Of a DNA stretch of 33,068 nt, positions 12,425 to 26,932 are shown in pieces. This DNA is from a virus. A model generated the notes under the pieces. The model was not told the origin of the DNA and searched no databases. It worked only from the letters and a program-made list of their open reading frames with translations. Numbering within the stretch: position 1 is the stretch's first letter; each line of letters opens with the position of its first letter. The DNA lies in IMG/VR virus record IMGVR_UViG_3300030329_003112, positions 1-33,068 of that record. The stretch is one strand, 5' to 3'. The translations under genes were made by a program, and so were the position numbers.

Positions 12425-12440
12425 GTAAGGATTAATTGAA

Positions 12441-12599: not shown

Positions 12600-12603
12600 T
12601 GAC

Positions 12604-13947: not shown

Positions 13948-14013
13948 AAGTGGTTACAACCACTTTGTAGCCTAGCAAAGAGGTTTGCTAGGCTACAGGG
14001 TGGTTAGACCCTG
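13948..14013 (-). ncRNA. Three-hairpin intergenic RNA element, copy E1
   Basis: Read on the reverse strand: hairpin 1 pairs 14008-14013 with 13996-14001 (CAGGGT/ACCCTG, loop CTAACC). Hairpin 2 pairs 13984-13997 with 13966-13979, a 14-bp stem. Hairpin 3 pairs AAGTGGTT with AACCACTT (13948-13965). It begins 6 nt after the stop of the 14020-14307 gene and ends 45 nt before the next start. It shares its architecture with copies at 16396, 20122 and 26867; hairpin 1 is invariant while stems 2 and 3 differ in sequence but keep pairing. Confidence 0.85.
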
Positions 14014-14019
14014 ATGAAC

Positions 14020-14307
14020 TTAAACCATTGCTCCTGTGTTATAGATAGTGTGAGTTTTCCTGTCCAAGATGCCCATGCGTGATAAAGACTTTGTCATGGA
14101 TTCAGGACTCTGTCGAGTCTCTAGAAGGTCATCGCACTCATGACACTTGAGCAAAGCACTGCTACCTCTTTGTGCTATGAACCTTAAGTTGGTATCCATA
14201 GACATCAATTTGTAGTCAACCTCATTAATCTCAGTAACATCGAAATTAATCGACCTTACCATACATGAACCCTCGTTGCAGTAAAGTGTGATAATTGTGT
14301 TTGTCAT
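14020..14307 (-). CDS. Small Cys-containing protein, first gene of a module
   Basis: A 95-residue protein. The start is the ATG at 14307, not the in-frame one 45 nt upstream, because AAGGAGTTTAGAT precedes it and the promoter -10 covers the upstream start. It begins MTNTIITLYCNEGSCMVRSI and contains LKCHECDDLL near residue 58. The two Cys pairs could bind zinc, giving a small zinc-ribbon-like fold. It sits behind promoter 14334-14382 and in front of RNA element E1. Function unknown. Confidence 0.7.
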   Translation of the reverse strand: MTNTIITLYCNEGSCMVRSINFDVTEINEVDYKLMSMDTNLRFIAQRGSSALLKCHECDDLLETRQSPESMTKSLSRMGILDRKTHTIYNTGAMV

Positions 14308-14333
14308 ATCTAAACTCCTTATTTGATAATACG

Positions 14334-14382
14334 AGAATATACTATATTTCACCTATTGTCAACACTTTCAACAAAATAAACA
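14334..14382 (-). promoter_or_regulatory. Reverse promoter with phased TGTTKA operator (copy 2)
   Basis: -35 TTGACA (14357-14362), 17-bp spacer, -10 TATTCT (14334-14339), all on the reverse strand. TGTTTATTT, TGTTGAAAG and TGTTGACA lie in perfect 9-bp phase at 14358-14382. The operator abuts the TAA of the methyltransferase gene and is base-for-base identical to the one at 16741-16765. Shortly after the -10 there is a CGTATTATCAAAT stretch also found at copy 3. Confidence 0.85.
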
Positions 14383-15516
14383 TTACTTTTCTAAAATAAA
14401 TATGGGTTCAAACTTAAAAAGGGCATTTTTGCTACCACCCATGAGCTTTGAAAGTGCCATATTGTGAGTATTGATATGCTTGAATCCCATGCTTTTGGCA
14501 ATGGATAATGTGTCAGATTCAAGGTCAGGATAGTTGATTACATCAGCAACATTAATCGCCAGTATTCCACCCTGCTTCAATCCCCTGTGGCAGTTATGTA
14601 GCATCCTGCTGAGAAACCCCTCTCTCCATTCATCCTTTGTCTGGTATCGAATGAAACTCTGGGTATCTTCATAAGCATATGCCTCAGTATCAAAATAAGG
14701 TGGAGATGAAAAGCACAGGTCAACTCCAGTCATATCTTCAGCCACCTCAAACCAATCCTCAGACCCTGCCTTATATAACATGGTCTCAATTGTTCTGGAT
14801 TGACCAAGGAAGGCTATGAGTTCATGGAGAGCATCATATGTCTGGGTAGATGGTTCAAAGCCCCTGTATGAGCGTATGCCTTTTGTGGCGAATGCTCCAA
14901 CAAGTCTGCCACCAAATCCACAGGAGAAGTCCACAACATCGCCAGAGCCTCCATATTTCTCATAAATGAACTTTGCTACTGATGGTTTGAAGTTGGATGC
15001 TTTCTGTGTTCCATTAGTCCATGAGAAAGCACCTCTCATTGTCTTGTGATTAAGATGACCACTAAGCTCAAGAGATTTCTTGATACATCGTCTGAGCATC
15101 TTATCATCATTGAAAGTTTCCATAGGAGACCTTCGCCAAGTCTTGCCTGATTTATCCTGATTATATTTGCACTTTACATCATAGATATGAGGCATCAGAA
15201 AGTTAGCTACTTTAGTGCCTGCTGAATGGTGCCTGATGATGCTTTGGTCATTTGCTTTTTCCTCAAGGGAATAAACATCAAGTGACTGAATATCCCTGAA
15301 GTCTTTCAACAGTGTCTCTTTGCCCCACTCAGGGTAAGGAAAGCCATGCTCTCTGTAGTAATCAAACACCTGCTGTTCAAACTGCTCTCTGTGGTCTGCA
15401 TCCAATGATTTCCAGACATCTTTTTTTACGCTGAATATATTTTCAATTGGAGCAGAAAACAGAGCCATCTGCATGGGATGACTCTGCTTGTCTGAATTAC
15501 CTGTTGCCTTATTCAC
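14383..15516 (-). CDS. SAM-dependent DNA methyltransferase
   Basis: A 377-residue protein with methyltransferase motifs: motif I at about residues 195-206 (VVDFSCGFGGRLVGA) for S-adenosylmethionine binding and motif IV SSPPYFD at about residue 271, followed by EAYAYEDTQSFIRY and a later LKQGGILAINVADV. The SPPY tetrad is more usual for N4-cytosine or atypical amino-methyltransferases than for DPPY-type N6-adenine enzymes. No separate restriction enzyme is present, so it probably modifies viral DNA to avoid host restriction. The N-terminal 130 residues are of unknown role and may recognise the site. Its start overlaps the end of the upstream gene by 8 bases. Confidence 0.8.
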   Translation of the reverse strand: MNKATGNSDKQSHPMQMALFSAPIENIFSVKKDVWKSLDADHREQFEQQVFDYYREHGFPYPEWGKETLLKDFRDIQSLDVYSLEEKANDQSIIRHHSAGTKVANFLMPHIYDVKCKYNQDKSGKTWRRSPMETFNDDKMLRRCIKKSLELSGHLNHKTMRGAFSWTNGTQKASNFKPSVAKFIYEKYGGSGDVVDFSCGFGGRLVGAFATKGIRSYRGFEPSTQTYDALHELIAFLGQSRTIETMLYKAGSEDWFEVAEDMTGVDLCFSSPPYFDTEAYAYEDTQSFIRYQTKDEWREGFLSRMLHNCHRGLKQGGILAINVADVINYPDLESDTLSIAKSMGFKHINTHNMALSKLMGGSKNALFKFEPIFILEK

Positions 15517-16363
15517 AGGAGGTTACCTTCGAGACGACCTTCTCAAGCTTCGTCAGCCTTTCAGCTAAAAGTGAATGCACCCCAATGTTTGTTGTATACC
15601 CAATGGCATCTTCTAGCTTTGCAATCCTTTCGTGTCTTATATTGTTTAACTCTTCTAGCTCTTCAATCCTTTCCTTCAGTTCTTTATTTTCTTTTTGCCA
15701 AGGTGATTTTTTAAACTTTTCTGATTGTATTATCTCATTAACAAAACGCTCTAGCCTGACCAGTCTTTGCGTATGTTTGTAATTACTCTCTTCAATGTAA
15801 TTATGTGTTCCCTGTAATGTGTGACCTCTTTTAAGGTTTCTGTCATTAGCTTCTACCAAATCTGTGACCATAGCTGTGAGAGAATCTATCTGCTTCTGCA
15901 TGGCATCAATCTTGGCATCCCTGTCATCCCCACCATTATCTGGTGAGGAATCCTCTGCTATTTCTTCTGGTGCAAATTCTGAAAATCCAACAGCACCATT
16001 TCTCCAACCCTCTACCATGAAGAATTTACACCTACTAATTGTATTAATCTTTACAATATCTCCAACTGAAAGTGACCTGTGGGATTTCTCTATGATATTC
16101 CATTCTGGGCTAGTATTTTCCTGACCCTGAAACTCTGCAAAAACCATCTTACACACCCAGAATGGATTGTAGTCGTTTTCATTAAAGTCGGGAGTAAATT
16201 CTCTTGTAGCGATTGGGCTGAACTCGTTTATGAATTCAGGCTTCCATCCCTTTTCAGGATTATCCTTCCAAACACCTTCTCTCCCTTCAAATCCAACTGC
16301 ATTCCATGCCTCTGATTCTCTGTTCTCTTCTAAACACCTGTTCTGTAATACTGTGACAATCAT
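15509..16363 (-). CDS. Unknown protein with YodL-like N-terminal part and coiled-coil tail
   Basis: A 284-residue protein behind AAAAGGAGTTTAAAT and RNA element E2. Residues 1-125 form a globular part with HRSLSVGDIVKINTISRCKF then FMVEGWR, a pattern close to the YodL-like domain of plasmid and phage accessory proteins. Residues 145-284 are a long coiled coil (DAKIDAMQKQIDSLTAMVTD; KENKELKERIEELEELNNI). It is co-transcribed with the methyltransferase, whose start it overlaps by 8 bases, so the two may act together in DNA modification or protection. The YodL assignment is from the motif only. Confidence 0.65.
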   Translation of the reverse strand: MIVTVLQNRCLEENRESEAWNAVGFEGREGVWKDNPEKGWKPEFINEFSPIATREFTPDFNENDYNPFWVCKMVFAEFQGQENTSPEWNIIEKSHRSLSVGDIVKINTISRCKFFMVEGWRNGAVGFSEFAPEEIAEDSSPDNGGDDRDAKIDAMQKQIDSLTAMVTDLVEANDRNLKRGHTLQGTHNYIEESNYKHTQRLVRLERFVNEIIQSEKFKKSPWQKENKELKERIEELEELNNIRHERIAKLEDAIGYTTNIGVHSLLAERLTKLEKVVSKVTSCE

Positions 16364-16395
16364 ATTTAAACTCCTTTTAATATAAAATTATGATT

Positions 16396-16460
16396 AGATG
16401 GTTTAACCATCTTGTAATCCAACAAGGGTGCTTGCTAGATTACAGGGTGGTTAGACCCTG
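16396..16460 (-). ncRNA. Three-hairpin intergenic RNA element, copy E2
   Basis: Read on the reverse strand: hairpin 1 (16455-16460 with 16443-16448) is identical in stem and loop to E1. Hairpin 2 pairs 16431-16444 with 16413-16426 over 14 positions, including two G-U wobbles that would be A-C mismatches if the plus strand were transcribed. Hairpin 3 pairs 16405-16412 with 16396-16403. It starts 6 nt after the stop of the 16467-16679 gene and lies before the 16363 start. Confidence 0.88.
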
Positions 16461-16466
16461 TGGATA

Positions 16467-16679
16467 TTAACCTACAAAAACGATTTTTTCTTCATGGTCA
16501 TATTTTAAAGTGATTTGTAAAACTGAATCGCTATGTTTCATATCTTCTACGAAAGCAAACATTTCAGAAGGTTTGTTGAAACCAATTGTGTTTGTTACAA
16601 TTCCGATTCCTTCAAAAACTTCTTGTACTTCTACTCCAAAGGTCTGGTCTGTATATGTTTCTAATTTTGCTGTTTTCAA
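16467..16679 (-). CDS. Small unknown protein, first gene of a module (TTG start)
   Basis: A 70-residue protein starting at a TTG, MKTAKLETYTDQTFGVEVQE, chosen because TAGGAGATACAAA precedes it. The frame stays open for 29 codons upstream, but that stretch holds the promoter and cannot be leader coding. It is acidic and probably an alpha-beta fold with alternating strands (VLQITLKYDHEEKIVFVG). It is transcribed from promoter 16717-16765 and followed after 6 nt by RNA element E2. Function unknown. Confidence 0.7.
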   Translation of the reverse strand: MKTAKLETYTDQTFGVEVQEVFEGIGIVTNTIGFNKPSEMFAFVEDMKHSDSVLQITLKYDHEEKIVFVG

Positions 16680-16716
16680 TTTGTATCTCCTATCTAAATT
16701 TGATTTGATAATACGA

Positions 16717-16765
16717 ATACTACAGGAGTATGAATACTTTGTCAACACTTTCAACAAAATAAACA
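16717..16765 (-). promoter_or_regulatory. Reverse promoter with phased TGTTKA operator (copy 3)
   Basis: -35 TTGACA (16740-16745), 17-bp spacer, -10 TAGTAT (16717-16722) on the reverse strand. Three TGTT units in 9-bp phase fill 16741-16765 and are identical to copy 2. The spacer and -10 are nearly identical to those of copy 5 at 20574-20613, differing at one spacer base. The operator touches the stop codon of the upstream gene. Confidence 0.88.
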
Positions 16766-17101
16766 TTAGTTATCAATCAATTCATCAATATCATCCACTT
16801 CTTTCAGCATTTCTTCTGCGATTGAATCATGGTGTTGTTGCTGATTGGGATTGAAGTGCTGTTCAATCATGAAGGTGCAGAAATCAGCTATTCGTTTTTC
16901 CAGAGCTTCCATGCTCTGACCATCACATTTTGCCACCAGTATTGAGACTGCCTCTCTGAAAAGCCAGAGGATTATCCCTGCCTGTTCTGGCAGGGAATAA
17001 TCACTTATGTCATATGGTGGAGATGGTGGCTCTATAGGCTCGATTCTTTTGAACTCTTCATGGTAAGTCAATTTAGACTCTCTCTGCTCTGGAAGTACCA
17101 A
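16766..17101 (-). CDS. Unknown acidic protein
   Basis: A 111-residue protein, third gene of the three-gene unit 17546 to 16766. It is Pro-rich at about residues 20-35 (FKRIEPIEPPSPPYD) and helical afterwards (QAGIILWLFREAVSILVAKC; EALEKRIADFCTFMIEQHF), with a very acidic C-terminus (EVDDIDELIDN). Its start overlaps the previous gene by 34 bases, so translational coupling is likely, and its exact start is uncertain. Its stop abuts the operator of the next promoter. No recognised family. Confidence 0.65.
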   Translation of the reverse strand: MVLPEQRESKLTYHEEFKRIEPIEPPSPPYDISDYSLPEQAGIILWLFREAVSILVAKCDGQSMEALEKRIADFCTFMIEQHFNPNQQQHHDSIAEEMLKEVDDIDELIDN

Positions 17102-17331
17102 CCATTCAGCACTGCCTCAACAATCACCTCTCTTGGGATTAGGATGGAAAAAACAGAGCCTGTTTCTGCATCTTTATGGAACAGCATTGCTTCAGGGGAA
17201 TGAGGGTGGGATGTACTCCACCCAAATTCCATGCTCACTGTCTCTCCATCAATTTCATTTACAAAGCCCAATGATTGAGGATTGGCATAATTTAATTCAT
17301 CTTTATAGAGAATTTCTTTCCTCTTTCTCAT
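17068..17331 (-). CDS. Small unknown beta-rich protein
   Basis: An 87-residue protein starting MRKRKEILYKDELNYANPQS, with beta-rich segments (GFVNEIDGETVSMEFGWSTS; ETGSVFSILIPREVIVEAVL). Its start overlaps the end of the ribbon-helix-helix gene by 4 bases and its end overlaps the next gene by 34. The repeated IPREVIVEAVLNGW-style helix at the C-terminus resembles the LPHKAVLALLRAVE segment of the 19216-19626 protein, so the two may share a fold. Function unknown. Confidence 0.65.
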   Translation of the reverse strand: MRKRKEILYKDELNYANPQSLGFVNEIDGETVSMEFGWSTSHPHSPEAMLFHKDAETGSVFSILIPREVIVEAVLNGWYFQSRESLN

Positions 17332-17546
17332 TGCCTGCTCGCTAGGTAATATTCAACAAGCTCAGTCACTGTCTGACCCATGCTTTTTCCATTACTGGCA
17401 GACAGCACCTTGATTGCCCTTATAGCATCTACGCTGACACCCCTGACAAAGAATGCCCTCTTTTCCATAGGCATCTCTGCCTCTACTGGCTCATCAAATC
17501 CACAATCAGTTGTTGCTACTTCTATCTTTTTCTGTGCGTTATTCAC
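17328..17546 (-). CDS. Ribbon-helix-helix-like DNA-binding protein
   Basis: A 72-residue protein with a GTG start (17546) preceded by AGGAGGTGCGAA. After an acidic N-terminal arm, residues 29-70 (RAFFVRGVSVDAIRAIKVL, then GKSMGQTVTELVEYYLASR) have the strand, helix, Gly-Lys/Ser turn, helix pattern of Arc/MetJ-type ribbon-helix-helix domains. Such proteins bind short direct repeats as tandem dimers, so it is a candidate regulator of the 9-bp-phased TGTTKA operators, one of which lies just upstream of its own gene at 17586-17602. DNA binding and autoregulation are inference. Confidence 0.6.
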   Translation of the reverse strand: MNNAQKKIEVATTDCGFDEPVEAEMPMEKRAFFVRGVSVDAIRAIKVLSASNGKSMGQTVTELVEYYLASRQ

Positions 17547-17560
17547 TTCGCACCTCCTCT

Positions 17561-17602
17561 TATATATTTATTTGATTCTATTACTGTCAACAATATTAAA
17601 CA
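17561..17602 (-). promoter_or_regulatory. Reverse promoter with reduced TGTTKA operator (copy 4)
   Basis: -35 TTGACA (17585-17590) and -10 TATATA (17561-17566) with an 18-bp spacer, on the reverse strand. Only two TGTT units are present and they are 10 bp apart, so it is the most divergent operator of the set. It drives the ribbon-helix-helix operon. Confidence 0.7.
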
Positions 17603-17642
17603 AGGTAGATGATAGAATCTGGCATCTTCCTGCTTAATCCTT

Positions 17643-17718
17643 CCTGTCATAGAGGGCAGGGTTTTTCTTTTTTGGTACTTTACCACCACTTTGAAAAAAG
17701 ATTGCCCTCTATGATAGG
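17643..17718. repeat. Long interrupted inverted repeat with nested stems
   Basis: TCATAGAGGGCA (17647-17658) is perfectly complementary to TGCCCTCTATGA (17703-17714), and the pairing extends to 17643 and 17718 with one G-U (plus RNA) or C-A (minus RNA) position. Inside the 44-nt loop a CTTTTTT/AAAAAAG stem and a GGTA/TACC stem can also form. It lies 8 nt after the stop of the 17726-19144 gene and 40 nt before the -35 box of promoter copy 4. It may be a terminator-like insulator, an RNase III site or a structured RNA. The strand is not resolved. Confidence 0.7.
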
Positions 17719-17725
17719 AGCTATT

Positions 17726-19144
17726 TCACCTGACGACCATATAGGTGATGTCTTTCACTGGCATCCCTTCTTCTCCTTTAAGGAATGGTGCTATCCATAT
17801 CAGCTTATGTGTCTGTGTGGTTGAGTACCATTGGCTTCGATAGTGACCAGACACCCACCACTGGAAGTCTCTTTTCTTGCCTTCTGTTGGCTGTCCAGAG
17901 GCTTTCTTTGCCTGTGGTCTACGAAGATATACCACAGATGATTGCTTGCCATCTGGTAAAGACTGAGTTGTATTTTTGTTTGCTCTTTCCATCTGCTTTC
18001 TCACTCTTCTGGGATTCTCCTCTTTTGACTTATGAATCATTGGAGTGTTGATGAAAGCAAGTATTGAAAATATCAGTTGTGGGATTTGTCCTGCCACAGC
18101 TTCTTGCTTGCCTGTGAGGTCTGGGGATTGTCCTTCTGTATTATCATAGACATCTCCATTCTCATATCTCAGCATCACATTAACAGTGGTTTGAAGCCCT
18201 CTGATTGATAGAGCTACATTAATTGCATCTTTGCCTTTCCACAAAGTCAGCCAGTCTATCAGTCCTGTAGATGATGGATAAATATTGCCATCATTTCCAA
18301 TCCATTTTTGGTCAGTATCTCCTACCACAGCTTTTTTCAAATCATTGACTGACTCATCATCATCATATTCGCCTGCCTCAATGGTTACTGGAAAAGGTGT
18401 TTCGAATACCCAGAACATTGAATCCATTGGAAGCAGGTCAGTGTTGATTGTGTGCTTGGGCAGAGGCATCGATGTCGCTGTCTTTATCACCTCATCTCTG
18501 AACAAGAAATTCTTACAGTGGGAACTGGCTAATAAATTAACCATTGCCACCTGAAGTTCTGCTACCTCAAATTTCGTTTCGTCTTTGTCCTGAACCATCC
18601 AAGCAAAAGCAGGGTCATCAGAACCATCCTTTAACACAGTGCCTGCCTGCATGATTGCACACAGTCTTTCGCCTTCTGCCTGCCAAGGAGACCTGCGTAT
18701 GACATTGTTGCTCTGTAACCATCTAAGATAAAACACTAAAAGATTGCTGTCTGATGTATTGTCCATAACCTTCAAATAAGTCTGGTACATGGATTGGAAG
18801 TCCTTATTGCCTACCCAATACTTGTAACTGCCCTGTATGAGGTTATTAAAGGCTTTATCACTGAGCCAACCAGTGCCATGCTCTTTCAGTTTCTCTATCT
18901 TTTCTGGATTGTCTGTTGCAGGGTGGAAACCTTGTATCCCTTGAGGGAAATGATTGCCTGCAATGTGGTCTAGATGATATCCAGATAATTCTTCAGGGCT
19001 AGGCTTTGAACGACTTGATTGACTTGGAACAAACTCTTGGTCGTTCTTATTTGGTTTTTTGAAGTAATGAGGTCTCTTGCTTTGGTCGCTTGCAAATCCA
19101 TGACCACCACTTTTCTTTCTTTTATTTCTGCTTGATTTACCCAT
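17726..19144 (-). CDS. Large unknown accessory protein with conserved C-terminal motif
   Basis: A 472-residue protein starting at ATG 19144 (MGKSSRNKRKKSGGHGFAS) behind AAGGAGTTTAGAATCG. The N-terminal 60 residues are basic and disordered-looking. Residues 85-330 are mainly helical, with a WLQSNNVIRRSPWQAEGERL segment. The C-terminal 30 residues (FQWWVSGHYRSQWYS, then HKLIWIAPFLKG) match a motif I know from uncharacterised proteins of actinobacterial and related genomes, which usually end with a similar GHWRNQWYP and KGPEDAPL pattern. No catalytic motif is obvious. The only large protein of unknown role in the reverse block. Confidence 0.7.
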   Translation of the reverse strand: MGKSSRNKRKKSGGHGFASDQSKRPHYFKKPNKNDQEFVPSQSSRSKPSPEELSGYHLDHIAGNHFPQGIQGFHPATDNPEKIEKLKEHGTGWLSDKAFNNLIQGSYKYWVGNKDFQSMYQTYLKVMDNTSDSNLLVFYLRWLQSNNVIRRSPWQAEGERLCAIMQAGTVLKDGSDDPAFAWMVQDKDETKFEVAELQVAMVNLLASSHCKNFLFRDEVIKTATSMPLPKHTINTDLLPMDSMFWVFETPFPVTIEAGEYDDDESVNDLKKAVVGDTDQKWIGNDGNIYPSSTGLIDWLTLWKGKDAINVALSIRGLQTTVNVMLRYENGDVYDNTEGQSPDLTGKQEAVAGQIPQLIFSILAFINTPMIHKSKEENPRRVRKQMERANKNTTQSLPDGKQSSVVYLRRPQAKKASGQPTEGKKRDFQWWVSGHYRSQWYSTTQTHKLIWIAPFLKGEEGMPVKDITYMVVR

Positions 19145-19174
19145 CGATTCTAAACTCCTTACCTGTAGTTTTTT

Positions 19175-19206
19175 TATCCCTGCCACACAGGCAAGTAGCA
19201 GGGATA
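19175..19206 (-). promoter_or_regulatory. Intergenic hairpin with an alternative fold
   Basis: On the reverse strand TATCCCTGC (19198-19206) pairs with GCAGGGATA (19175-19183), 9 bp. An alternative stem, CTTGCC with GGCAGG, uses part of the same second arm, so the two folds exclude each other. It begins 9 nt after the stop of the 19216-19626 gene and precedes the ribosome site of the 19144 gene. It may separate or regulate the two genes. Confidence 0.55.
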
Positions 19207-19215
19207 TTTTAATCT

Positions 19216-19626
19216 CTAGCCAGTGTCCTTTTTCTCGAAAGGCACAACACCATTTCTTCGTCTGGTTTCAGCGGCTTTCTCAGCACTTGCAGACCTAGCC
19301 TGCTTGTTGGTGCTTTCCACTGCCCTTAATAAAGCAAGAACTGCTTTATGTGGTAGTGTCACCCTAGTGCCACCTTTGCCATCAATGTGTACCCATTCAA
19401 GACGAGCAGTAAACTGACCATCATGTCTGGTGACTTTGCCACTGTAGTTGATGTATCCTAGTGGTTCAGGATTCTTAGTCCTTCCTTCCCACAGTGCATC
19501 CAGTATCGGCTCAGTCTCCACTGGTGAACCATCTGTGCTTTGGTAATCCTTAGTGTAGTAAGGAACTTCCACACTTAATTTCGCCTCAAAGAAATCAGGT
19601 AATCTATCATTTTTTCTTTTAGACAT
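19216..19626 (-). CDS. Unknown basic protein
   Basis: A 136-residue protein, MSKRKNDRLPDFFEAKLSVE, with a beta-rich centre (GYINYSGKVTRHDGQFTARL; GGTRVTLPHKAVLALLRAVE) and a basic, Ala-rich helical C-terminus (ARSASAEKAAETRRRNGVVP). The ribosome site GGGAGG lies 14 nt before the ATG, which is farther than usual. Its mRNA would begin with the 3' product of the hammerhead ribozyme at 19665-19719, with a 5' leader of about 44 nt. Family unknown. Confidence 0.65.
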   Translation of the reverse strand: MSKRKNDRLPDFFEAKLSVEVPYYTKDYQSTDGSPVETEPILDALWEGRTKNPEPLGYINYSGKVTRHDGQFTARLEWVHIDGKGGTRVTLPHKAVLALLRAVESTNKQARSASAEKAAETRRRNGVVPFEKKDTG

Positions 19627-19664
19627 TGTATTGTTAAATACCTCCCTTTTTTATAGTTTTAGCT

Positions 19665-19719
19665 ACCTGTGACACTCAGTGTTTCGAGGGGGGAGCAACC
19701 CCCCTCTCATCAGACAGGT
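19665..19719 (-). ncRNA. Hammerhead ribozyme (type I, reverse strand)
   Basis: Reverse-strand RNA reads stem I ACCUGU (19719-19714), core CUGAUGA (19713-19707), an 8-bp stem II GAGGGGGG/CCCCCCUC (19706-19699 with 19693-19686, loop UUGCU), core GAA (19685-19683), stem III ACAC/GUGU with loop UGA (19682-19672), cleavage base C (19671), and stem I partner ACAGGU (19670-19665). All conserved nucleotides of the catalytic core, including the A-U pair and the GUC cleavage triplet, are present. Cleavage is expected between 19671 and 19670. It starts 4 nt after the stop of the 19724-20098 gene and would separate it from the 19216-19626 mRNA. Confidence 0.93.
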
Positions 19720-19723
19720 TAGA

Positions 19724-20098
19724 TTACTTTAAATCCATTGCCACTTGTTTAAGAGCATCGTACACGAACTCTATGGGAAGAATTTCGACTGTACAATTGT
19801 GTGGGTTGTTACTTCGCTCATTAATGACCTCACAAATGCCACATCTTTGAGAGCCTGATAAGGCACTACTTTGTGCTAATCGTTTCCCTGTTTGCAATAA
19901 TGTCATTTGCATATCCCAACTCACATCATTCTCAGTAAGCACTGATTCTAATTTTTTGTGTAAGCCTTCTAGCATTTTCTCATGTGCCTGTTGTTTTTCT
20001 TTTCTTGCTTTGTTGTGTCGTTCCCAATCTTTTCTACTGGCTTCGTGTGACTGTTCTCTATTGTGCCATCTTCTGTGATGAGTTCTTTCTTGGTGCAT
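19724..20098 (-). CDS. Unknown His-rich charged protein, directly upstream of the hammerhead
   Basis: A 124-residue protein, MHQERTHHRRWHNREQSHEA, with a very basic, His-rich helical N-terminal half (a coiled-coil-like stretch to residue ~60) and a C-terminal part with CGICEVINERSNNPHNC, three Cys in a zinc-finger-like arrangement. The ribosome site is AGGAGAGTGCA. It follows RNA element E3 and is followed 4 nt after its stop by the hammerhead ribozyme. Nucleic-acid binding is plausible from the charge and cysteines but is not shown. Confidence 0.7.
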   Translation of the reverse strand: MHQERTHHRRWHNREQSHEASRKDWERHNKARKEKQQAHEKMLEGLHKKLESVLTENDVSWDMQMTLLQTGKRLAQSSALSGSQRCGICEVINERSNNPHNCTVEILPIEFVYDALKQVAMDLK

Positions 20099-20121
20099 TG
20101 CACTCTCCTGTGTTTTATTTA

Positions 20122-20174
20122 GATGATTGAATCACCTTGTAGTGGATTTGCCACTACAGGGTAATTAAACCCTG
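20122..20174 (-). ncRNA. Three-hairpin intergenic RNA element, copy E3
   Basis: On the reverse strand: hairpin 1 pairs 20169-20174 with 20157-20162 (same stem, loop TTAATT). Hairpin 2 pairs 20151-20158 with 20138-20145, an 8-bp stem. Hairpin 3 pairs 20131-20136 with 20122-20127 with one G-U wobble that the plus-strand RNA could not form. It begins 7 nt after the stop of the 20182-20538 gene and ends 23 nt before the 20098 start. Confidence 0.85.
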
Positions 20175-20181
20175 ATTGATT

Positions 20182-20538
20182 TTAGCTGTACTCAATCCAA
20201 CCCATGTCTGGGTGCTTATAATATGGCACTGGAAGTTCAGTGATTCCTTTTTCCTTTCTTTCCTTTGCCCTCTTTTCTTTTGGAGTCATATATCCTCGAT
20301 GCCAATAAACTCGCTTATACCAGAAGTCTCCACGTTGAATTTTCTCATCCATGTAATCTTCCATTCGCTCTTCGTTTTCTTTCTCCCATAGCTTCTGCTC
20401 AAGTTCTGACTGCTTCTTATGCATATCCACAAGTGCTTTGGATAATGTGTCTATCGTCTTATCCTTCCTTTCAATTTTGCTTTTCAATAAGCTAATGTAC
20501 CTTTCTACAACTACTTCCTTATGTGCTTTTGTATTCAT
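20182..20538 (-). CDS. Charged coiled-coil protein, first gene of the main reverse operon
   Basis: A 118-residue protein. The start is ATG 20538 (MNTKAHKEVVVERYISLLKS) behind TAGGAGTTTAGAT; the in-frame ATG 21 nt upstream has no ribosome site. Residues 5-65 form a long charged coiled coil (KSKIERKDKTIDTLSKALVD), and the C-terminal half is basic with many aromatic residues (DFWYKRVYWHRGYMTPKEK). It heads the reverse transcript from promoter 20574-20613 and is followed by RNA element E3. It could be a DNA-binding or structural regulator; family unknown. Confidence 0.7.
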   Translation of the reverse strand: MNTKAHKEVVVERYISLLKSKIERKDKTIDTLSKALVDMHKKQSELEQKLWEKENEERMEDYMDEKIQRGDFWYKRVYWHRGYMTPKEKRAKERKEKGITELPVPYYKHPDMGWIEYS

Positions 20539-20573
20539 ATCTAAACTCCTATATTTCATATTTGATACTACGG

Positions 20574-20613
20574 ATACTACAGGAGCATGAATACTTTGTC
20601 AACACTGTAAACA
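20574..20613 (-). promoter_or_regulatory. Reverse promoter with phased TGTTKA operator (copy 5)
   Basis: -35 TTGACA (20597-20602), 17-bp spacer, -10 TAGTAT (20574-20579) on the reverse strand, with TGTTTACAG and TGTTGACA in 9-bp phase (20598-20613). It is almost identical to copy 3 over the core promoter. It drives the main reverse operon and lies back to back with the forward promoter at 20670-20698. Confidence 0.85.
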
Positions 20614-20669
20614 ATAATAACTGAATAACACATGAAATAAATGTAAAATAACCAATATTCAGTTAATGC

Positions 20670-20698: not shown

Positions 20699-20740
20699 TG
20701 TATGGTGGGCAAAAGCTCAAATTTGTAAATGGAGGTGTAA

Positions 20741-21034
20741 ATGAAAATAGAAGCAGGCAGTAAGGAGATGCACAGTGCAATCTTGAGAGTCATCGAAGAA
20801 CATATAGATGGCAAAAAGAATGTAAAGTCAGAGAGGGTAATTCCCATAGAGGGGTACACTGTATCTGAGGTAGCTGATTCTTTGAGGGTGTCTGAGAAGT
20901 ATGTGTGGGAACTGGTCTGGAGTGGTCAATTAGCCTCTTTCAGGGTTGGCAAAGACTCCAAGCTAGTGAGGATTTCCCATGATGCTCTGAAGCAGTTCAG
21001 AATGTTCAGGGAGAGCGAAGAAGCATCCAAGTAA
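20741..21034 (+). CDS. Excisionase-like helix-turn-helix DNA-binding protein
   Basis: A 97-residue protein with GGAGGTGTAA as ribosome site. Residues 40-90 (GYTVSEVADSLRVSEKYVWE, then GQLASFRVG and VRISHDALKQF) match the MerR/excisionase winged-helix pattern, in which a helix-turn-helix is followed by a basic wing and a final helix. It is the first gene behind the divergent promoter, a typical place for a transcription regulator. With no integrase in the genome it is more likely a regulator than a true excisionase. It could bind the phased operators or the region between the divergent promoters. Confidence 0.75.
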   Translation: MKIEAGSKEMHSAILRVIEEHIDGKKNVKSERVIPIEGYTVSEVADSLRVSEKYVWELVWSGQLASFRVGKDSKLVRISHDALKQFRMFRESEEASK

Positions 21035-21179
21035 GAAATCAGGGCTGAAGAAACATAAGAAAATCAACCCTGACTCCTGAAAGGAAATACAGCTTCAAGT
21101 CTAGCACATGAAAAAAGGAATGTTAACTGAGAGAGAAAAGTTTTGGATAAAATATTATAAACAAGTAGAGGTAAAAACA

Positions 21180-21830
21180 ATGGCAATGAGCCAAACAATC
21201 GAAGGTGTAATCGAAGAGATATTGACAGAGATAAATGGTGACGATGAGGTCTATGACAGGATTCACAAACTGGAAGTAGACACAGTGAAATGGGAGGGTG
21301 ATGTTGCAAAGGTAACAGTGGATTGTCCAGACATTGGATTATATCCAACCAGTCTGTTTTTGAGTGCAGAGCAGTCAGCTAAGTTAAGAGACCCTAAAGA
21401 CAAGAATCAGGTTTATGAGATAGTACTTGCTTTGGGCAAGCTTAAGCAGGGCAAATCAGGCGACAATGCTTATGACTACTGGTATCAGTGCAAATCATTT
21501 GAAGGAGTGGTGAATGACAGGATAAGGAGCATGAGTCCTTCACAGGTTTCTGCTACCCCTGTTACCCCTGTTACTCCACAGGTGAGTGAAGTTTCATCCA
21601 CCAGTGCAGGCGACAAAAAGCAGAAAGAGATAAATCTTGGTCAGGCTTGGAATCTAGCCAGTGTGTGGTTGGAGAAAAGAGTGTATCAGGGTGAAGATGG
21701 TGCAGAAAGCTTCATGAATTTTGCAAATGATTCCCAAAGAAATGAAGGACTTGCTGAAGAGATGAAACTTTTTGCAGTTGCCATTTATAATCAGATGCAG
21801 AAAGCGAGGGAAGAAGTTGGACTCATTTAA
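21180..21830 (+). CDS. Unknown protein of the replication operon
   Basis: A 216-residue protein if it starts at ATG 21180 (MAMSQTIEGVIEEILTEING), chosen because AGAGGTAAAAACA precedes it. An upstream in-frame ATG at 21108 would add 24 residues but has no ribosome site. Residues 25-110 (VKWEGDVAKVTVDCPDIGLY) are beta-rich and could be an OB-like fold. A Pro/Thr/Ser linker (ATPVTPVTPQVSEVSSTS) leads to a helical C-terminal domain. Location next to the initiator gene makes a single-strand-binding or recombination accessory role possible, but this is not established by motif. Confidence 0.65.
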   Translation: MAMSQTIEGVIEEILTEINGDDEVYDRIHKLEVDTVKWEGDVAKVTVDCPDIGLYPTSLFLSAEQSAKLRDPKDKNQVYEIVLALGKLKQGKSGDNAYDYWYQCKSFEGVVNDRIRSMSPSQVSATPVTPVTPQVSEVSSTSAGDKKQKEINLGQAWNLASVWLEKRVYQGEDGAESFMNFANDSQRNEGLAEEMKLFAVAIYNQMQKAREEVGLI

Positions 21831-22131
21831 AGATGTAGCAGTAGTCAGAATGCCTAAAGACGAGCTTATAGGGAAGCCTCCTAGAGAGGTTATCCCTATA
21901 GGCAATGTAGAGTTCATTGCTTTGTTAGACTGTAATTCCTGCGAGGCTAATGGCGACAACAGAGGCAAGAAACTGAATGCAGTTACCAAAGAATGGAAAA
22001 CCTGTACTCTTTGTGGAGGAGAGAGGAAAATAGAGTACTTTCTCCCTGCAATCAAGGTTTTGGATGTCTACAAGGAAATAAGGATGCTTATGAACAGATT
22101 CACTAAAGAATTAAGGATAAGGTTCAACTGA
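21817..22131 (+). CDS. Zinc-ribbon protein of the replication operon
   Basis: A 104-residue protein from a TTG start at 21817 (preceded by GAGGGAAGAAG), overlapping the previous gene by 14 bases. An ATG at 21850 is an alternative. It contains two Cys-x-x-Cys pairs, LLDCNSCEANG and TCTLCGGERK, about 22 residues apart, which would bind one zinc ion. The rest is helical and basic at the C-terminus (MLMNRFTKELRIRF). Its stop overlaps the initiator's ATG by one base. A role in replication or transcription is likely from context. Confidence 0.68.
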   Translation: MDSFKDVAVVRMPKDELIGKPPREVIPIGNVEFIALLDCNSCEANGDNRGKKLNAVTKEWKTCTLCGGERKIEYFLPAIKVLDVYKEIRMLMNRFTKELRIRFN

Positions 22132-22928
22132 TGAATTTTCAGACTCTGGCATGGGGATATAACATCCTTCCACATATCATAGGAGGCAGTAGCTCAAAAC
22201 TACTGTTCTCCTATATGTGCATGATGGCAGATGCTGAGAATCAGGTCAGGCTTGAATCCAAGTCTCTGGGCTTGTTGCTCAGTCTATCGAAATCAACTAT
22301 GTCCAGAGCATTGAATTCTTTAGAGAATCAGGGAATTATAAGCAAGGTGAAAAGAGGCAATAAGCATACAGAATCAACATATGTTGTAAATTCTCAAAGT
22401 GTCAAAATGACACCTAGACAGGAAGGTCAAAGTGTCAAAATGAGTCTTTTAGAATATGATGCCTTGTTTCAAGGTGTCAAAATGACACTTATAAAACCAC
22501 CTGTGAAAGAAAAAGAAGAAAGAAAACCTTTAGAAAAGAAAGAAGAAAAAGAAAAAGAAAAGAAAGATATAAAAGAAAAGACTTATAAGAATAAGTCCAA
22601 AAGAAAAAAGAAAGAAGATTTGCCAAAGTGGTGTCAGGTGTTACTCAGGGATGATAGGTTAAAGATAGAGTCTGTCACTCCTGATTGGATTGAAAGGATT
22701 GAGACCACTTACGCAGATAAGGATTTACTTCTTGAGGCTGAGAATTGTGTTGACTGGATATCCAATAAGCCTGAAGCAAAGAGTGTGAAGGCAACCTTCA
22801 ATACATGGCTTAGTTATGAGAAGAGGTGGGGTAAGGGTGCAAATCCAAAGCAAAGCACCTTTAATGCCCATTCTGGTGGTAATATGGCTAGTATATTAGA
22901 GTTTGCTAACCAGAGAAAAAGAAGGTAG
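22131..22928 (+). CDS. Winged-helix replication initiator with internal iterons
   Basis: A 265-residue protein. Residues 20-85 form a winged helix (SKLLFSYMCMMADAENQVRL; LGLLLSLSKSTMSRALNSLE; GIISKVKRG), the usual DNA-binding part of phage O-type initiators. Residues 88-122 are encoded by three iteron-like repeats (QSVKMT, QSVKMS, QGVKMT). Residues 125-165 are Lys/Glu-rich and highly charged. The C-terminal 100 residues (SVTPDWIERIETTYADKDLL onward) are helical and could contact the helicase loader, whose gene follows. As in lambda, the origin probably lies within this gene. Confidence 0.75.
   Translation: MNFQTLAWGYNILPHIIGGSSSKLLFSYMCMMADAENQVRLESKSLGLLLSLSKSTMSRALNSLENQGIISKVKRGNKHTESTYVVNSQSVKMTPRQEGQSVKMSLLEYDALFQGVKMTLIKPPVKEKEERKPLEKKEEKEKEKKDIKEKTYKNKSKRKKKEDLPKWCQVLLRDDRLKIESVTPDWIERIETTYADKDLLLEAENCVDWISNKPEAKSVKATFNTWLSYEKRWGKGANPKQSTFNAHSGGNMASILEFANQRKRR
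22395..22618. other. Predicted replication origin: three iterons and an A-rich strand
   Basis: Near-identical 19-bp repeats lie at 22395-22413, 22428-22446 and 22470-22488, 33 and 42 bp apart (about three and four helical turns). Each contains GTGTCAAAATGA, and copies 1 and 3 are palindromic (GTGTCA-AAA-TGACAC). A strongly purine- and A-rich stretch (about 22505-22618) follows directly and would melt easily. Iterons in an initiator gene beside an AT-rich zone match the lambda origin layout. Function is inferred. Confidence 0.72.
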
Positions 22929-22949
22929 TTAATTTTAAGGAGTTTAGTT

Positions 22950-23744
22950 ATGAGGGAATTAAGAAGTTTATTTAGACCATTATCAACACCATTACCTGAT
23001 GAAAGTCAGTGTAGCAAATGCAAGTATTTTGACATTAATCATCCAGAGGTGATTCAGATTATCAAGGAGAATTACCCTATAACCTACGATAGTGTACTAT
23101 ATCAGTCCAAGTGTAGGTGTGATGATAGGTACAGTGCTGAAGCAATCAAGACAAGAGAGCTTTGGGCAAATTCCAATATCCCTAACAGAGCTTATACTGA
23201 CAAAGTAAAGACATTCATGAATTTTAAGCAGGTCGAAGGAACTGAAGAATCACTTGAAAAGTGCAGGACTTTTACAAGAAGGTCAGGTAGCAGAATATTA
23301 TCTCTGGTTGGTACTTATGGAAGTGGTAAATCTCATCTGTTAGAGGCAGTGGCTAGAGAGTGGATTCATGATGGTTATTCAGTGAGATATGAGTATGTGC
23401 CATCCCTGCTCAATGAACTCAGGTCTACCCAGACCAGTGAAGAGGGCAATGGTAGCCTCTGGAGCAAGTTGCAGGAAAGATTCAAGGCAAGTCTGCTCAT
23501 ACTGGATGATTTGGGTCAGGAGAACCCAACAGAGTGGACAAGAAAGACCTTAACTGAGATAGTAGACGAAAGAGTCAGGTCAAATGGATGGTTGCTCTGT
23601 GCTACCAATTACACAGAAGAGCAACTCAGGGAAAGGGTTGATGAGAGGTTTGTCAGCAGACTGTTTGAAAGAGGCGATTATTCCATCATGACCTGTGGTA
23701 CTTATTTTGGAGAAGAATGGAAGGAACTGGTGAACAATGGCTAA
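22950..23744 (+). CDS. DnaC-like AAA+ helicase loader
   Basis: A 264-residue protein with Walker A GTYGSGKSH at about residue 121 and Walker B LLILDDLG at about residue 182, followed by sensor-like LLCATNY and an arginine-containing RLFERGDY. The N-terminal 60 residues hold four Cys (CSKCKYF and CRCDD), a likely zinc site. This is the form of DnaC/IstB-type loaders that place the replicative helicase. No helicase gene is visible, so it probably recruits the host's DnaB. The ribosome site AAGGAGTTTAGTT is the same extended form used by reverse-strand genes. Confidence 0.88.
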   Translation: MRELRSLFRPLSTPLPDESQCSKCKYFDINHPEVIQIIKENYPITYDSVLYQSKCRCDDRYSAEAIKTRELWANSNIPNRAYTDKVKTFMNFKQVEGTEESLEKCRTFTRRSGSRILSLVGTYGSGKSHLLEAVAREWIHDGYSVRYEYVPSLLNELRSTQTSEEGNGSLWSKLQERFKASLLILDDLGQENPTEWTRKTLTEIVDERVRSNGWLLCATNYTEEQLRERVDERFVSRLFERGDYSIMTCGTYFGEEWKELVNNG

Positions 23745-24108
23745 AGAATTTGACTATTGGGGTAATGTGCAGAAATTGGCTAAAAAATATAAATTTGAGC
23801 TTGATACCATAGATGGAATTCCTTTGTATAAGACTGAAAAGGAGTTTACTAATGCAGTCAGGGAACTTGCTTTATTAAATGGGTGGCTTTATTACCACAC
23901 ATATGACTCAAGGAGGAGCGATAGAGGCTTCCCTGACTGTGTTTTTGTTAAAGATGGAAGGGTTATCTTTGCTGAGTTGAAAGTACCCAGAGGAAAGCTG
24001 TCTGCATATCAAAAAGAATGGCTCACTGAGCTGAATGAGGTAAGTGGAGTCGAGGTCTATCTCTGGTTTCCAAAAGATTGGGATGAGATAGAGGTGGTGC
24101 TTGGATGA
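23737..24108 (+). CDS. VRR-NUC family nuclease
   Basis: A 123-residue protein with the VRR-NUC signature: an N-terminal EKEFTNAVRELALLNGW, then SDRGFPDCVFVKDGRV with the catalytic Asp, IFAELKV with Glu and Lys (E-x-K), and a downstream Gln in LSAYQKEW. These are the conserved residues of this PD-(D/E)XK-type family. It could resolve recombination intermediates before packaging or process replication forks. It overlaps the loader gene by 8 bases and the next gene by 4. Small size is typical for phage members. Confidence 0.85.
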   Translation: MAKEFDYWGNVQKLAKKYKFELDTIDGIPLYKTEKEFTNAVRELALLNGWLYYHTYDSRRSDRGFPDCVFVKDGRVIFAELKVPRGKLSAYQKEWLTELNEVSGVEVYLWFPKDWDEIEVVLG

Positions 24109-24461
24109 AGAGCAAGGTCGCTGAAAATCTACTTAAAGAGATTGAGCAGTTCGCAGGAGATGACCCTGTTAAATGGCAAAAATTCTACGAGAGATTCCAT
24201 AGAAACTACAAGGCTTCAACAGAATGGACTGGCTATGATTACATGGTGGCTTGGCTCAATGCAAAGGTCAGTCTGTGGAAAGCACTCAAGGCAAGTAAAA
24301 AGACAGCTTTTGTGCAGGCAGACATCAATGCTTATTCCTCCATAGAGGCTTATAACAGAACCATGTTGATTGAACATGAGTCTAAAGCAGACTTTCCTCC
24401 CCTAGCTGACAAGAATGTCATGGAGAAGATAATCAGATGGAGGCAGAGTCAAAAGAAATGA
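24105..24461 (+). CDS. Unknown helical protein of the replication and packaging operon
   Basis: A 118-residue helical protein with several Trp (KWQKFYERFHRNYKAST; GYDYMVAWLNAKVSLWKALK). It begins in an ATGA overlap with the VRR-NUC gene and ends in an ATGA overlap with the next gene, so it is tightly coupled. No family recognised. The aromatic and basic helices would suit a DNA- or protein-binding accessory factor. Confidence 0.65.
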   Translation: MKSKVAENLLKEIEQFAGDDPVKWQKFYERFHRNYKASTEWTGYDYMVAWLNAKVSLWKALKASKKTAFVQADINAYSSIEAYNRTMLIEHESKADFPPLADKNVMEKIIRWRQSQKK

Positions 24462-24733
24462 CCTTTCCTCAATCTGGAGATAATTGGGCAAAACAGAGAA
24501 AGGCGAATATTGGTGATAAGGTCGTTTTTAGTGGCAGAAAAAACAAACCCTCCCAGAGTGGCATATTTGTGAAACAGCACCTGAATCATCGAGGAAGTGT
24601 TCTTTCACACAAGGCAAGAATGGCAAATACTGGATTGTCAATGAGGCATTACTATTTGCTAAAATGTGATGACTGTGTTGGTTCAGACCCAGATTGGGTT
24701 ATGTCTCAATTATTTGACAAAACGAACATATAG
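24458..24733 (+). CDS. Unknown small protein before the terminase genes
   Basis: A 91-residue protein if the ATG at 24458 in the ATGA overlap is used (MTFPQSGDNWAKQRKANIGD). An in-frame ATG at 24437 would add seven residues. It is basic in the middle (RKNKPSQSGIFVKQHLNHRG) with a CDDC pair near residue 71 (LLKCDDCVG) that could contribute to metal binding. It lies directly before the terminase small subunit, where phages often encode small packaging or HNH proteins, but the HNH residues are not visible. Function unknown. Confidence 0.6.
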   Translation: MTFPQSGDNWAKQRKANIGDKVVFSGRKNKPSQSGIFVKQHLNHRGSVLSHKARMANTGLSMRHYYLLKCDDCVGSDPDWVMSQLFDKTNI

Positions 24734-24780
24734 ATAAGAAACTATAGAGGCAATAAGGCAAAAAAGGGTAATAAGGCATT

Positions 24781-25251
24781 ATGGGTAGACCTAGAGGAAC
24801 AAAGACCAAGAATCCAGAGCAGAGAATGAAGCAAAGGATGAAGATGATGCAGTTGAGACTAGATGGTTATTCCTATCAGGCTATAGCTGACATGAACAAG
24901 ACAGCGAAGTCTGTGGCATTCAAGGAAGTCCAGAAAGCACTTGTTGAAATGGCAGAAGAATATTCACAAGAAGCAGAGAAACTAAGGGCAATGCAGATGA
25001 TTAGATATGAGAAGCTCTTAGGAGTGTATTTCCCAGATGCTATGAGTGGAGATAGAGAGAGTGCTAATCTGGCATTATCAGTGATGTCTCATATGAACAA
25101 AATCAATGGCTTAGAACAGAAGGCAATAGATATAGAGCAGAAGATAGTTGATTTCACCTTTAACATAGAAAGGGCAGATGTTGGCAACCTACCAAATAAC
25201 ATACAAGCCTCCTTACCTGTATCAGAAGCAGAAGGAAGCAATATTCAGTGA
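24781..25251 (+). CDS. terS: Terminase small subunit
   Basis: A 156-residue protein directly upstream of and overlapping the large subunit by 74 bases. The N-terminal half (MGRPRGTKTKNPEQRMKQRM; RLDGYSYQAIADMNKTAK) is basic with a helix-turn-helix like that of TerS DNA-binding domains, and the middle helices (VQKALVEMAEEYSQEAEKL) suit oligomerisation. The C-terminal tail would contact TerL. TerS recognises the packaging site on viral DNA. The position is the main support for the call. Confidence 0.75.
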   Translation: MGRPRGTKTKNPEQRMKQRMKMMQLRLDGYSYQAIADMNKTAKSVAFKEVQKALVEMAEEYSQEAEKLRAMQMIRYEKLLGVYFPDAMSGDRESANLALSVMSHMNKINGLEQKAIDIEQKIVDFTFNIERADVGNLPNNIQASLPVSEAEGSNIQ

Positions 25252-26368
25252 AGCTAGATATTCAATAATAGAAGGAGCTACAAAGTCTGGAAAGACAGTA
25301 GCCTGCTTATCTTGGATACTAGAGCAAGCTGTGTTAGGCACAGCAGGTCAGAACTTCTGGTGGATAGCACCAGTATATCCTCAAGCCAAGATAGCCTATA
25401 GAAGGTTAAAGAGGGCAGTCACACAGAGGCTATATCAGTCCAATGAAGCAGAGCTAACCATCACCCTGAGAAATGGTGCTGTAATTGGCTTTAAATCAGC
25501 AGAGAAGCCAGACAACCTATATGGTGAGGATGTCTATGGAGCAGTGCTAGATGAAGCAACCAGAATGAGAGAAGAATCATGGTTTGCAATCAGGTCTACA
25601 TTAACAGCTACTCAAGGCAAGGTCAGGATAATAGGTAATGTCAAGGGCAGAAGGAATTGGGCATATCGACTGGCAAGACAGGCAGAATCAGGAGGCATCG
25701 ACTGGCATTATTCTAAGCTGACAGCTTGGGATGCAGTAGATGCAGGGATTGTATCAAGAGGAGAGATAGAAGATGCACAGAACATTCTGCCTAGCCATAT
25801 CTTCAAAGAGCTGTATCTAGCAGAAGCAAGTGATGATGGTGGCAATCCATTTGGAGTAGATGCCATAGAAGCCTGTGTCAAAGAGATGTCTGCTAGGAAA
25901 CCACTCTATTGGGGAATAGACCTAGCTAAAAGCCAAGATTATACAGTTATAGTTGGGATAGACGATGAAGGCTCTCTGGCATACTTCGATAGATTCCAGA
26001 GGTCATGGGAACTAACAGAGAGAATCATAACAAAGACCCTCAATGGAGAGACCTGCTATGTTGACTCAACTGGAGTAGGAGACCCTATAGTTGAGAGGCT
26101 ACAGAAAAGTCTGTCTAATTTTCATGGATACAAGTTCTCCAGTTCCAGTAAGCAGAGACTCATGGAAGGGCTACAGCTAGCCATCCATAACAGGGAAATA
26201 GGATATCCTAAAGGAACACTGCTTAATGAGCTGTTGTCCTTTGAATACCAGTGGACTAGAACAGGTGCTACCTACTCTGCTCCAGAAGGATTGCATGATG
26301 ATTGTGTCATGGCTCTCGCTCTGGCTGTATATGCCAAAGATAACAGGGTTGGATTAGGAGTCTGGTAA
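25178..26368 (+). CDS. terL: Terminase large subunit
   Basis: A 396-residue protein, short for the family. ATPase motifs: Walker A EGATKSGKT at about residue 33, Walker B AVLDEATRM at about residue 122, and a coupling-type motif IIGNVKGRRNW. Nuclease motifs: YWGIDLAKSQDYTV with the first Asp, CYVDSTGVGD with the second, and LHDDCVMALALAV with the terminal Asp pair. These are the residues that bind metal in TerL RNase-H-like nucleases. It packages viral DNA into the prohead through the portal. Its ATG lies within the TerS frame, and the stop overlaps the next gene by one base. Confidence 0.93.
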   Translation: MLATYQITYKPPYLYQKQKEAIFSEARYSIIEGATKSGKTVACLSWILEQAVLGTAGQNFWWIAPVYPQAKIAYRRLKRAVTQRLYQSNEAELTITLRNGAVIGFKSAEKPDNLYGEDVYGAVLDEATRMREESWFAIRSTLTATQGKVRIIGNVKGRRNWAYRLARQAESGGIDWHYSKLTAWDAVDAGIVSRGEIEDAQNILPSHIFKELYLAEASDDGGNPFGVDAIEACVKEMSARKPLYWGIDLAKSQDYTVIVGIDDEGSLAYFDRFQRSWELTERIITKTLNGETCYVDSTGVGDPIVERLQKSLSNFHGYKFSSSSKQRLMEGLQLAIHNREIGYPKGTLLNELLSFEYQWTRTGATYSAPEGLHDDCVMALALAVYAKDNRVGLGVW

Positions 26369-26505
26369 TGTCTAAAGATAAGCCACTCAGATGCTGTCGC
26401 TGTAACGCTCTATTAGCAGAGAAAGCACCTATTGGAACAAAGATAAGGTGTAGGAGATGCAAGGAAGTGAACGAGGTCTATACAACAAAAAACCCCTCTG
26501 TTTAA
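26368..26505 (+). CDS. Com-like small zinc-ribbon protein
   Basis: A 45-residue protein beginning in the TAATG overlap with the terminase stop. It has two CxxC-type pairs, LRCCRCNALLAE and RCRRCKEVNE, with the GTKI spacing of Com/Mu-type zinc ribbons, which in Mu bind mRNA to activate translation of a DNA-modification gene. This genome does encode a methyltransferase, so a similar RNA-binding role is possible, but it is inference. The end of the gene forms one arm of the following terminator. Confidence 0.68.
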   Translation: MSKDKPLRCCRCNALLAEKAPIGTKIRCRRCKEVNEVYTTKNPSV

Positions 26506-26514
26506 GGAGGGGTT
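26491..26514. terminator. Bidirectional intrinsic terminator
   Basis: AACCCCTC (26491-26498) pairs with GAGGGGTT (26507-26514). On the plus strand CTTT follows, and on the minus strand a run of six T follows. The stop codon of the 26368-26505 gene lies in the loop. It ends the forward replication and packaging operon and the convergent 26546-26848 transcript. Confidence 0.82.
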
Positions 26515-26545
26515 CTTTGCTATAGGAGAGACTTATTTAGTTACT

Positions 26546-26848
26546 TTATCTGTTGCCTGTAAAGTTATCCTTATTACCTATAGACCTTGCACAAGGGAAA
26601 ACATAGAAAAATTGTTCTGCCTCCCAACTACCTTTTACCATAATTGGGTCGCCATTCGCTTTGTTATCTTCGTTCAACCATTCGATTTCTTTTGTTAGTG
26701 CTTCATCTACACTAGAAAATATCTCTGGATGCACAAATCCACCTGTCTCCCAACAATTGCGAGCTATATCTTTGCATCCTTGTTTGTGAATGCTCATGTA
26801 TGCACTTGAGACTATTGAGTGAGATATGACTACTACTTTCTCTTCCAT
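26546..26848 (-). CDS. Unknown protein, second gene of the small reverse unit
   Basis: A 100-residue protein starting at ATG 26848 (MEEKVVVISHSIVSSAYMSI), which has AAAAGGAGTTTAGGAACA before it. An in-frame ATG 45 nt upstream lies inside RNA element E4 and has no ribosome site. It has a mixed alpha-beta composition with HKQGCKDIARNCWE and many aromatic residues (WEAEQFFYVFPCARS). It is preceded by RNA element E4 and followed by the terminator at 26491-26514. Function unknown. Confidence 0.7.
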   Translation of the reverse strand: MEEKVVVISHSIVSSAYMSIHKQGCKDIARNCWETGGFVHPEIFSSVDEALTKEIEWLNEDNKANGDPIMVKGSWEAEQFFYVFPCARSIGNKDNFTGNR

Positions 26849-26866
26849 TGTTCCTAAACTCCTTTT

Positions 26867-26932
26867 AAGGTGGTGTTGATTTAGTTGAACCACCTTGTGG
26901 AGGCAATCCCTCCACAGGGTGATTAAACCCTG
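26867..26932 (-). ncRNA. Three-hairpin intergenic RNA element, copy E4
   Basis: On the reverse strand: hairpin 1 pairs 26927-26932 with 26915-26920 (loop TTAATC). Hairpin 2 pairs 26909-26916 with 26896-26903, 8 bp. Hairpin 3 pairs AAGGTGGT (26889-26896 read in reverse) with ACCACCTT (26867-26874) around a 14-nt loop. It begins 6 nt after the stop of the 26939-27286 gene and ends 18 nt before the 26848 start. This copy stands outside the main reverse operon. Confidence 0.85.

Follow-up and report, generated by a model that had tools for sequence, protein, structure and literature searches.

A repeated three-hairpin RNA element behind minus-strand stop codons of a phage genome and its possible role in mRNA processing

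In this study, IMG/VR virus record IMGVR_UViG_3300030329_003112 (the window, a complete record of 33,068 bases) was analysed for a repeated RNA-like element, here called E, with four copies between minus-strand genes. Each copy follows the stop codon of a small gene (gene A), and a second gene (gene B) comes after it. With about even confidence, E may be read as an intercistronic RNA that processes or insulates the mRNAs of early minus-strand operons. Observed directly were a repeated covarying structure, a fixed spacing to the stop codon, units of promoter, gene, element and gene, and hammerhead motifs at the junctions of a sister phage.

Structure and competing folds of element E

The copies of E, with stems numbered P1 to P3, are listed below. 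One of them lies in L005, a near relative contig with 85.6% identity to the window over 5.6 kb.

13948..14013, minus strand: E1; P1 (CAGGGT/ACCCTG), P2 of 14 bp, P3; starts 6 nt past the gene A stop
16396..16460, minus strand: E2; P1, P2 of 14 bp including two G-U pairs, P3; starts 6 nt past the gene A stop
20121..20174, minus strand: E3; P1, short P2 (8 bp), P3; starts 7 nt past the gene A stop
26867..26932, minus strand: E4; P1, short P2 (8 bp), P3 with arms 14 nt apart; starts 6 nt past the gene A stop
L005 3149-3225: fifth copy, counterpart of the E4 site; starts 6 nt past the stop codon

The four copies of the original prediction were all present on the minus strand, and the pattern CAGGGTN{3,9}ACCCTG matched four times in the window against 0.02 expected from shuffles. 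P1 is an invariant 18-bp palindrome with a 6-nt loop. It shares UG with P2, and U17-G18 can pair in either stem. The arms of stem 3 were separated by 14 nt in L005 as in E4. The placement at gene junctions was also correct and could be sharpened: E1-E4 began 6, 6, 7 and 6 nt past a stop codon (6 nt in L005), and the distance from E to the next start codon varied from 17 to 45 nt.

Base pairs were scored for covariation by hand in a manual alignment of the five sequences (E1-E4 and L005). The P1 sequence was the same in all five and gave no covariation evidence for or against that stem. Compensatory changes were found in five of the seven variable pairs of the long-class P2 (E1, E2, and L005), in both variable pairs of the short-class P2 (E3 and E4), and in all three variable pairs of P3 (E1-E3). 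Stems 2 and 3 thus vary yet stay complementary, as had been claimed, and the covariation is real, although the sample is small. The L005 copy and the E4 site differed by one substitution across ~90 flanking bases. Stem 2 of L005 was entirely different, with 32 nt of the E1/E2 class replacing the 21-nt stem 2 of E4. Compared with window 26867-26932, the L005 copy looked like a whole-stem swap within near-identical flanks, as if converted from another copy.

For E1-E4 and L005, folding z-scores ranged from -4.2 to -6.6 in the minus RNA and from -5.1 to -7.7 in the plus RNA. An alternative pairing could join the loop and 3' arm of P1 (AAYYACC) to the 5' arm of stem 3 (GGTGRTT); one of its positions is compensatory. 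This pairing, which did not appear in the original prediction, gives a single long hairpin with an energy close to that of the three-hairpin fold. The energies with P1 forced and with the P1 5' arm blocked were, respectively:

E1: -33.1 and -32.0 kcal/mol
E2: -27.6 and -24.3 kcal/mol
E3: -17.8 and -18.7 kcal/mol
E4: -27.2 and -24.2 kcal/mol
L005: -25.4 and -22.4 kcal/mol

Since these energies were similar, the two folds are close in energy. The extended fold had ~21-23 bp with C-A mismatches in E1, E2, and L005, and ~15-16 bp in E3 and E4; an RNase III site has ~20 bp.

Three imperfect pairs are G-U in minus RNA, as noted earlier, but the conclusion drawn from them, that selection acts on the minus transcript, was unsupported. 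L005 has one within-stem pair of the opposite polarity, G-U only in plus RNA (two counting the loop-closing pair). The tally becomes 3 against 1 or 2, and the strand argument from G-U pairs therefore fails. The gene context still favours minus RNA as the acting strand, because the genes and promoter-like sites are on the minus strand and the spacing to minus-strand stops is fixed.

Hammerhead motifs at the same kind of junction

The earlier interpretation was right about a repeated covarying RNA-like element, but it missed the hammerhead motifs that the same operon and a sister phage contain. These hammerhead neighbours at the same kind of junction are the best clue to the role of E. The sister phage G002 (records L042 and L043) is syntenic with the window, and its terminase is 80% identical. 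The motifs were:

19665..19719, minus strand, window: canonical type I hammerhead motif, 4 nt past the stop of 19724-20098 (gene B of E3) and before 19216-19626
L042 13254-13311, minus strand: type I hammerhead motif, F family of G002
L042 13496-13552, minus strand: type I hammerhead motif, F family
L042 13782-13836, minus strand: type I hammerhead motif, F family
L042 15754-15809, minus strand: type I hammerhead motif, F family
L043 12007-12062, minus strand: type I hammerhead motif, F family

The window motif is composed of stem I ACCUGU/ACAGGU, CUGAUGA, stem II GAGGGGGG/CCCCCCUC, GAAA, stem III ACAC/GUGU, and a GUC site. The F consensus, CCAUU-CUGANGA-(U)-GGURGG..CCYACC-GAAA-CCCC..GGGG-U-C/A-AAUGG, has the type I hammerhead arrangement with a GUC or GUA site. 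In F1-F4 an additional U follows CUGAUGA; the window copy and F5 have the canonical form. The stem II loop of F (UGGUU) can pair with the tail (AACCA), resembling known hammerhead pseudoknots (PMC3088659). The window copy and F1-F5 all have the core, three stems with stem I open, and a UH site; judged by sequence, they are type I hammerhead motifs. F1-F5 lie 0-4 nt past stop codons in matching minus-strand islands, including the terL-portal island that houses E4. No evident gene was seen directly behind F5.

The descriptor scan matched the five F copies and window 19719-19665, with one match in 7.1 Mb of shuffled sequence. It gave no match in other relatives or scanned genome loci. A further scan, for type II and III hammerheads, gave none. 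Model R2, built from the G002 F copies alone, matched window 19719-19665 at E=1.1e-6. Rfam RF00163 and RF00008 had no match at E<=10 to the window or F motifs, and Rfam cmscan of F3, F5, and the window copy listed no hammerhead at E<=10. The hammerhead call is therefore based on the descriptor and model R2, with no support from Rfam. Since Rfam missed motifs with a complete core, its silence on E is weak evidence.

G002 had no E copy; instead, its junctions of this kind carried the five-copy F family. One gene A has homologues in both phages (37% identity, 68 columns, E=3e-12); the element behind it is E1 in the window and F1 in G002.

Minus-strand units, genome and searches

Four TTGACA promoter-like sites were found on the minus strand, each upstream of one gene A with E after its stop. 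Promoter-like matches per se were no commoner than in shuffles; these four also belong to repeat families. The features of the units were:

14334..14362, minus strand: promoter-like TTGACA-17-TATTCT, E1 unit
16717..16745, minus strand: promoter-like TTGACA-17-TAGTAT, E2 unit
20574..20602, minus strand: promoter-like TTGACA-17-TAGTAT, E3 unit
27318..27345, minus strand: promoter-like TTGACA-16-TAATAT, E4 unit
14020..14307, minus strand: gene A of the E1 unit, whose G002 homologue has hammerhead-type F1 behind it instead of E
13453..13902, minus strand: gene B of the E1 unit, followed by a U-tract hairpin (13417-13383)
26939..27286, minus strand: gene A of the E4 unit
26546..26848, minus strand: gene B of the E4 unit, followed by a U-tract terminator (26509-26493)
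17547..17725, minus strand: long irregular hairpin CCUAUCAUAGAGGGCA..UGCCCUCUAUGACAGG in a gap just past the stop of 17726-19186; z -4.6

The E1 and E4 units consist only of gene A, E, gene B, and terminator. Since they are so short, the element should act locally. The E3 unit has the order gene A, E3, gene B, hammerhead, gene C, gene D, long hairpin, and further genes; the long hairpin is a possible RNase III-type site. All within-operon minus-strand gaps of >30 nt held structured RNA, namely E (four), hammerhead (one), and long hairpin (one). Structured RNA immediately past the stop at every sizeable junction suggests one job.

The ends of the window (1-210 and 32861-33068) formed a terminal direct repeat with 99% identity. 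As the ends match each other, the window is probably a near-complete phage genome, circularly permuted or terminally redundant. Its terminase had relatives at 80-95% identity, and the terminase scan of genome contigs gave matches from mixed environmental hosts. The minus-strand gene islands at ~12.6-20.6 kb and ~26.5-27.3 kb were mostly private to the window. A block with ~80% identity (window 12439-12610 and L042 12415-12587) adjoined a terminator, apparently outside long genes.

Further copies of E were sought in several ways, with scans that may omit the records closest to the window. A model from E1, E2, and L005 recovered E4 and E3 at ~1e-9 and found no further convincing place in 66 loci. 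Reverse-strand matches of known E copies also appeared in this search, since the element is palindromic. Pattern scans of viral contigs gave only L005 as an E copy among the matches listed. L006 and the stem-bearing matches of the pattern scan were rejected as homologues, since they look like chance or coding sequence. Protein-guided scans for accessory genes gave no new E copy, and blastn against phages and plasmids gave nothing convincing. E had no Rfam match above gathering; the original prediction likewise knew of no described family of this kind.

Possible roles of the element

E would act on early minus-strand polycistronic mRNAs, just past the stop codon of the first gene. There it would most likely cause the mRNA to be cleaved between genes A and B, or otherwise insulate the ends. 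We infer that E is transcribed, that cleavage results, and by what chemistry. Cutting could proceed either by self-cleavage, which would make E a new ribozyme class, or through the action of a host enzyme (RNase III, for example) on the extended hairpin. The same role has been inferred for the hammerhead ribozymes that occupy equivalent junctions in phages. Where phage hammerheads are clustered and flank single genes, they cleave polycistronic RNA both in vitro and in E. coli (PMC3088659). The even confidence given to processing or insulation follows from this known cutting and from the structured RNA after the stops.

The clustered hammerheads of phages and prophages (Perreault et al. 2011, PMC3088659) are likewise structured RNAs between co-transcribed genes, several per operon. 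E differs from them in its fold and in lacking the CUGANGA and GAAA core elements, and descriptor scans for the hammerhead core matched no E copy. Within the confidence given to processing, a rather unlikely part is that E represents a novel class of small self-cleaving ribozymes, used beside the hammerhead to cut early mRNAs. The loop of the invariant P1 hairpin would then pair with a segment 3' of the variable P2. Pistol, hatchet, and twister-sister were found via their association with known ribozymes and phage genes (PMC4604425). Pistol is also phage-associated and its P1 hairpin loop can pair with a downstream segment (PMC4604425), but by inspection the helix order differs, the loop partner in E lying 3' of the closed P2 hairpin. 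Pistol RF02679 did not match E. Nor did the twister-P1, twister-sister, and hatchet models, although Rfam models also missed the hammerhead motifs. An HDV (hepatitis delta virus)-like fold was rejected, the 6-nt P1 loop being too small for nested stems. The RNase III processing sites of T7 are repeated hairpins at early gene junctions, as E is. E differs from these in its invariant P1, its competing folds, and the length of only ~15-16 bp in E3 and E4.

Several points weigh against a processing or insulating role. E has none of the cores of the ribozyme classes checked. As an RNase III site E would be poor, given its C-A mismatches and how short the extended helix is in E3 and E4. The invariance of P1 fits protein binding equally well, and conservation was shallow, with only two phages (the window and L005) carrying E among the searched contigs.

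The chief rival, still unlikely, is a translation-coupled switch. With the pairing segments lettered in order, a:b (P1) and c:d (P3) would compete with b:c (extended P2) in an attenuator-like manner. The ribosome ending gene A would cover segment a, which begins 6-7 nt beyond the stop, favour the extended hairpin, and alter expression of gene B. The P1-forced and 5'-arm-blocked folds differed by 0.9-3.3 kcal/mol in all five copies, segment c of E3 covaries with both b and d, and the distance from stop to element is fixed. Only one compensatory position supports the alternative pairing, however, and no output is visible, as there is no U-tract past P3 and no clear pairing with the ribosome-binding site of gene B. 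It is less probable that E is bound by an RNA-binding protein of the phage or its host. A UAAYYAC-like motif is displayed on two hairpins, P1 and the P3 that resembles it, and the P1 sequence is invariant where P2 and P3 are free to change, but no candidate protein was identified, and P1 invariance in two phages may partly reflect recent copying. PeSL in T4-type phages are repeated promoter and hairpin sequences permitting exchange of early genes. A recombination cassette of this type has a small probability: the blocks of promoter and element are repeated, and stem 2 differs wholly between E4 and L005 within almost unchanged flanks. However, shuffling may be a by-product of any repeat, and a cassette leaves unexplained the fixed stop spacing and the hammerheads at the same kind of junction.

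A palindrome acting in DNA, as an operator or similar, with incidental RNA folding, was considered very improbable. P1 is an invariant 18-bp palindrome and similar phage palindromes are known (PMC4351075, PMC7302621), but E lies a few hundred nt from the promoter, is locked to a stop codon, and has a P2 and P3 that covary without sequence conservation. The SAS/ESAS of Cluster K mycobacteriophages and the repeats of Clusters EF, EG, and O (PMC3203893, PMC7302621, PMC4351075) are phage-specific intergenic inverted repeats of unknown function. The ESAS and EG repeats are tied to start codons, whereas E keeps to stop codons and comprises three hairpins, with covariation. The slightest probability was given to an antitermination RNA like HK022 put. 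E resembles putR in its ~66 nt, several stem-loops, and position a few hundred nt past an early promoter (PMC9378689). However, put, which binds RNAP and suppresses termination, has two stems with bulges (compared by inspection), and antitermination ill suits the E1 and E4 units of two genes and a terminator; read-through in E4 would go antisense into terL. Three further candidates were rejected: integron attC sites, since only some copies have ends that fit RYYYAAC/GTTRRRY; stop-codon read-through, the post-stop frame being open in E3 and E4 and closed in E1, E2, and L005; and an intrinsic terminator, no U-tract following any E on the minus strand.

If E does cut the mRNA, then either it is a self-cleaving RNA of a new kind, or it is cut by a protein and such a site can be exchanged for ribozymes. 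The window and G002 would then constitute a natural swap, in which a homologous gene at the same kind of junction is followed by a different element. Such a swap would make the question of what role phage hammerheads play for their genes directly testable.
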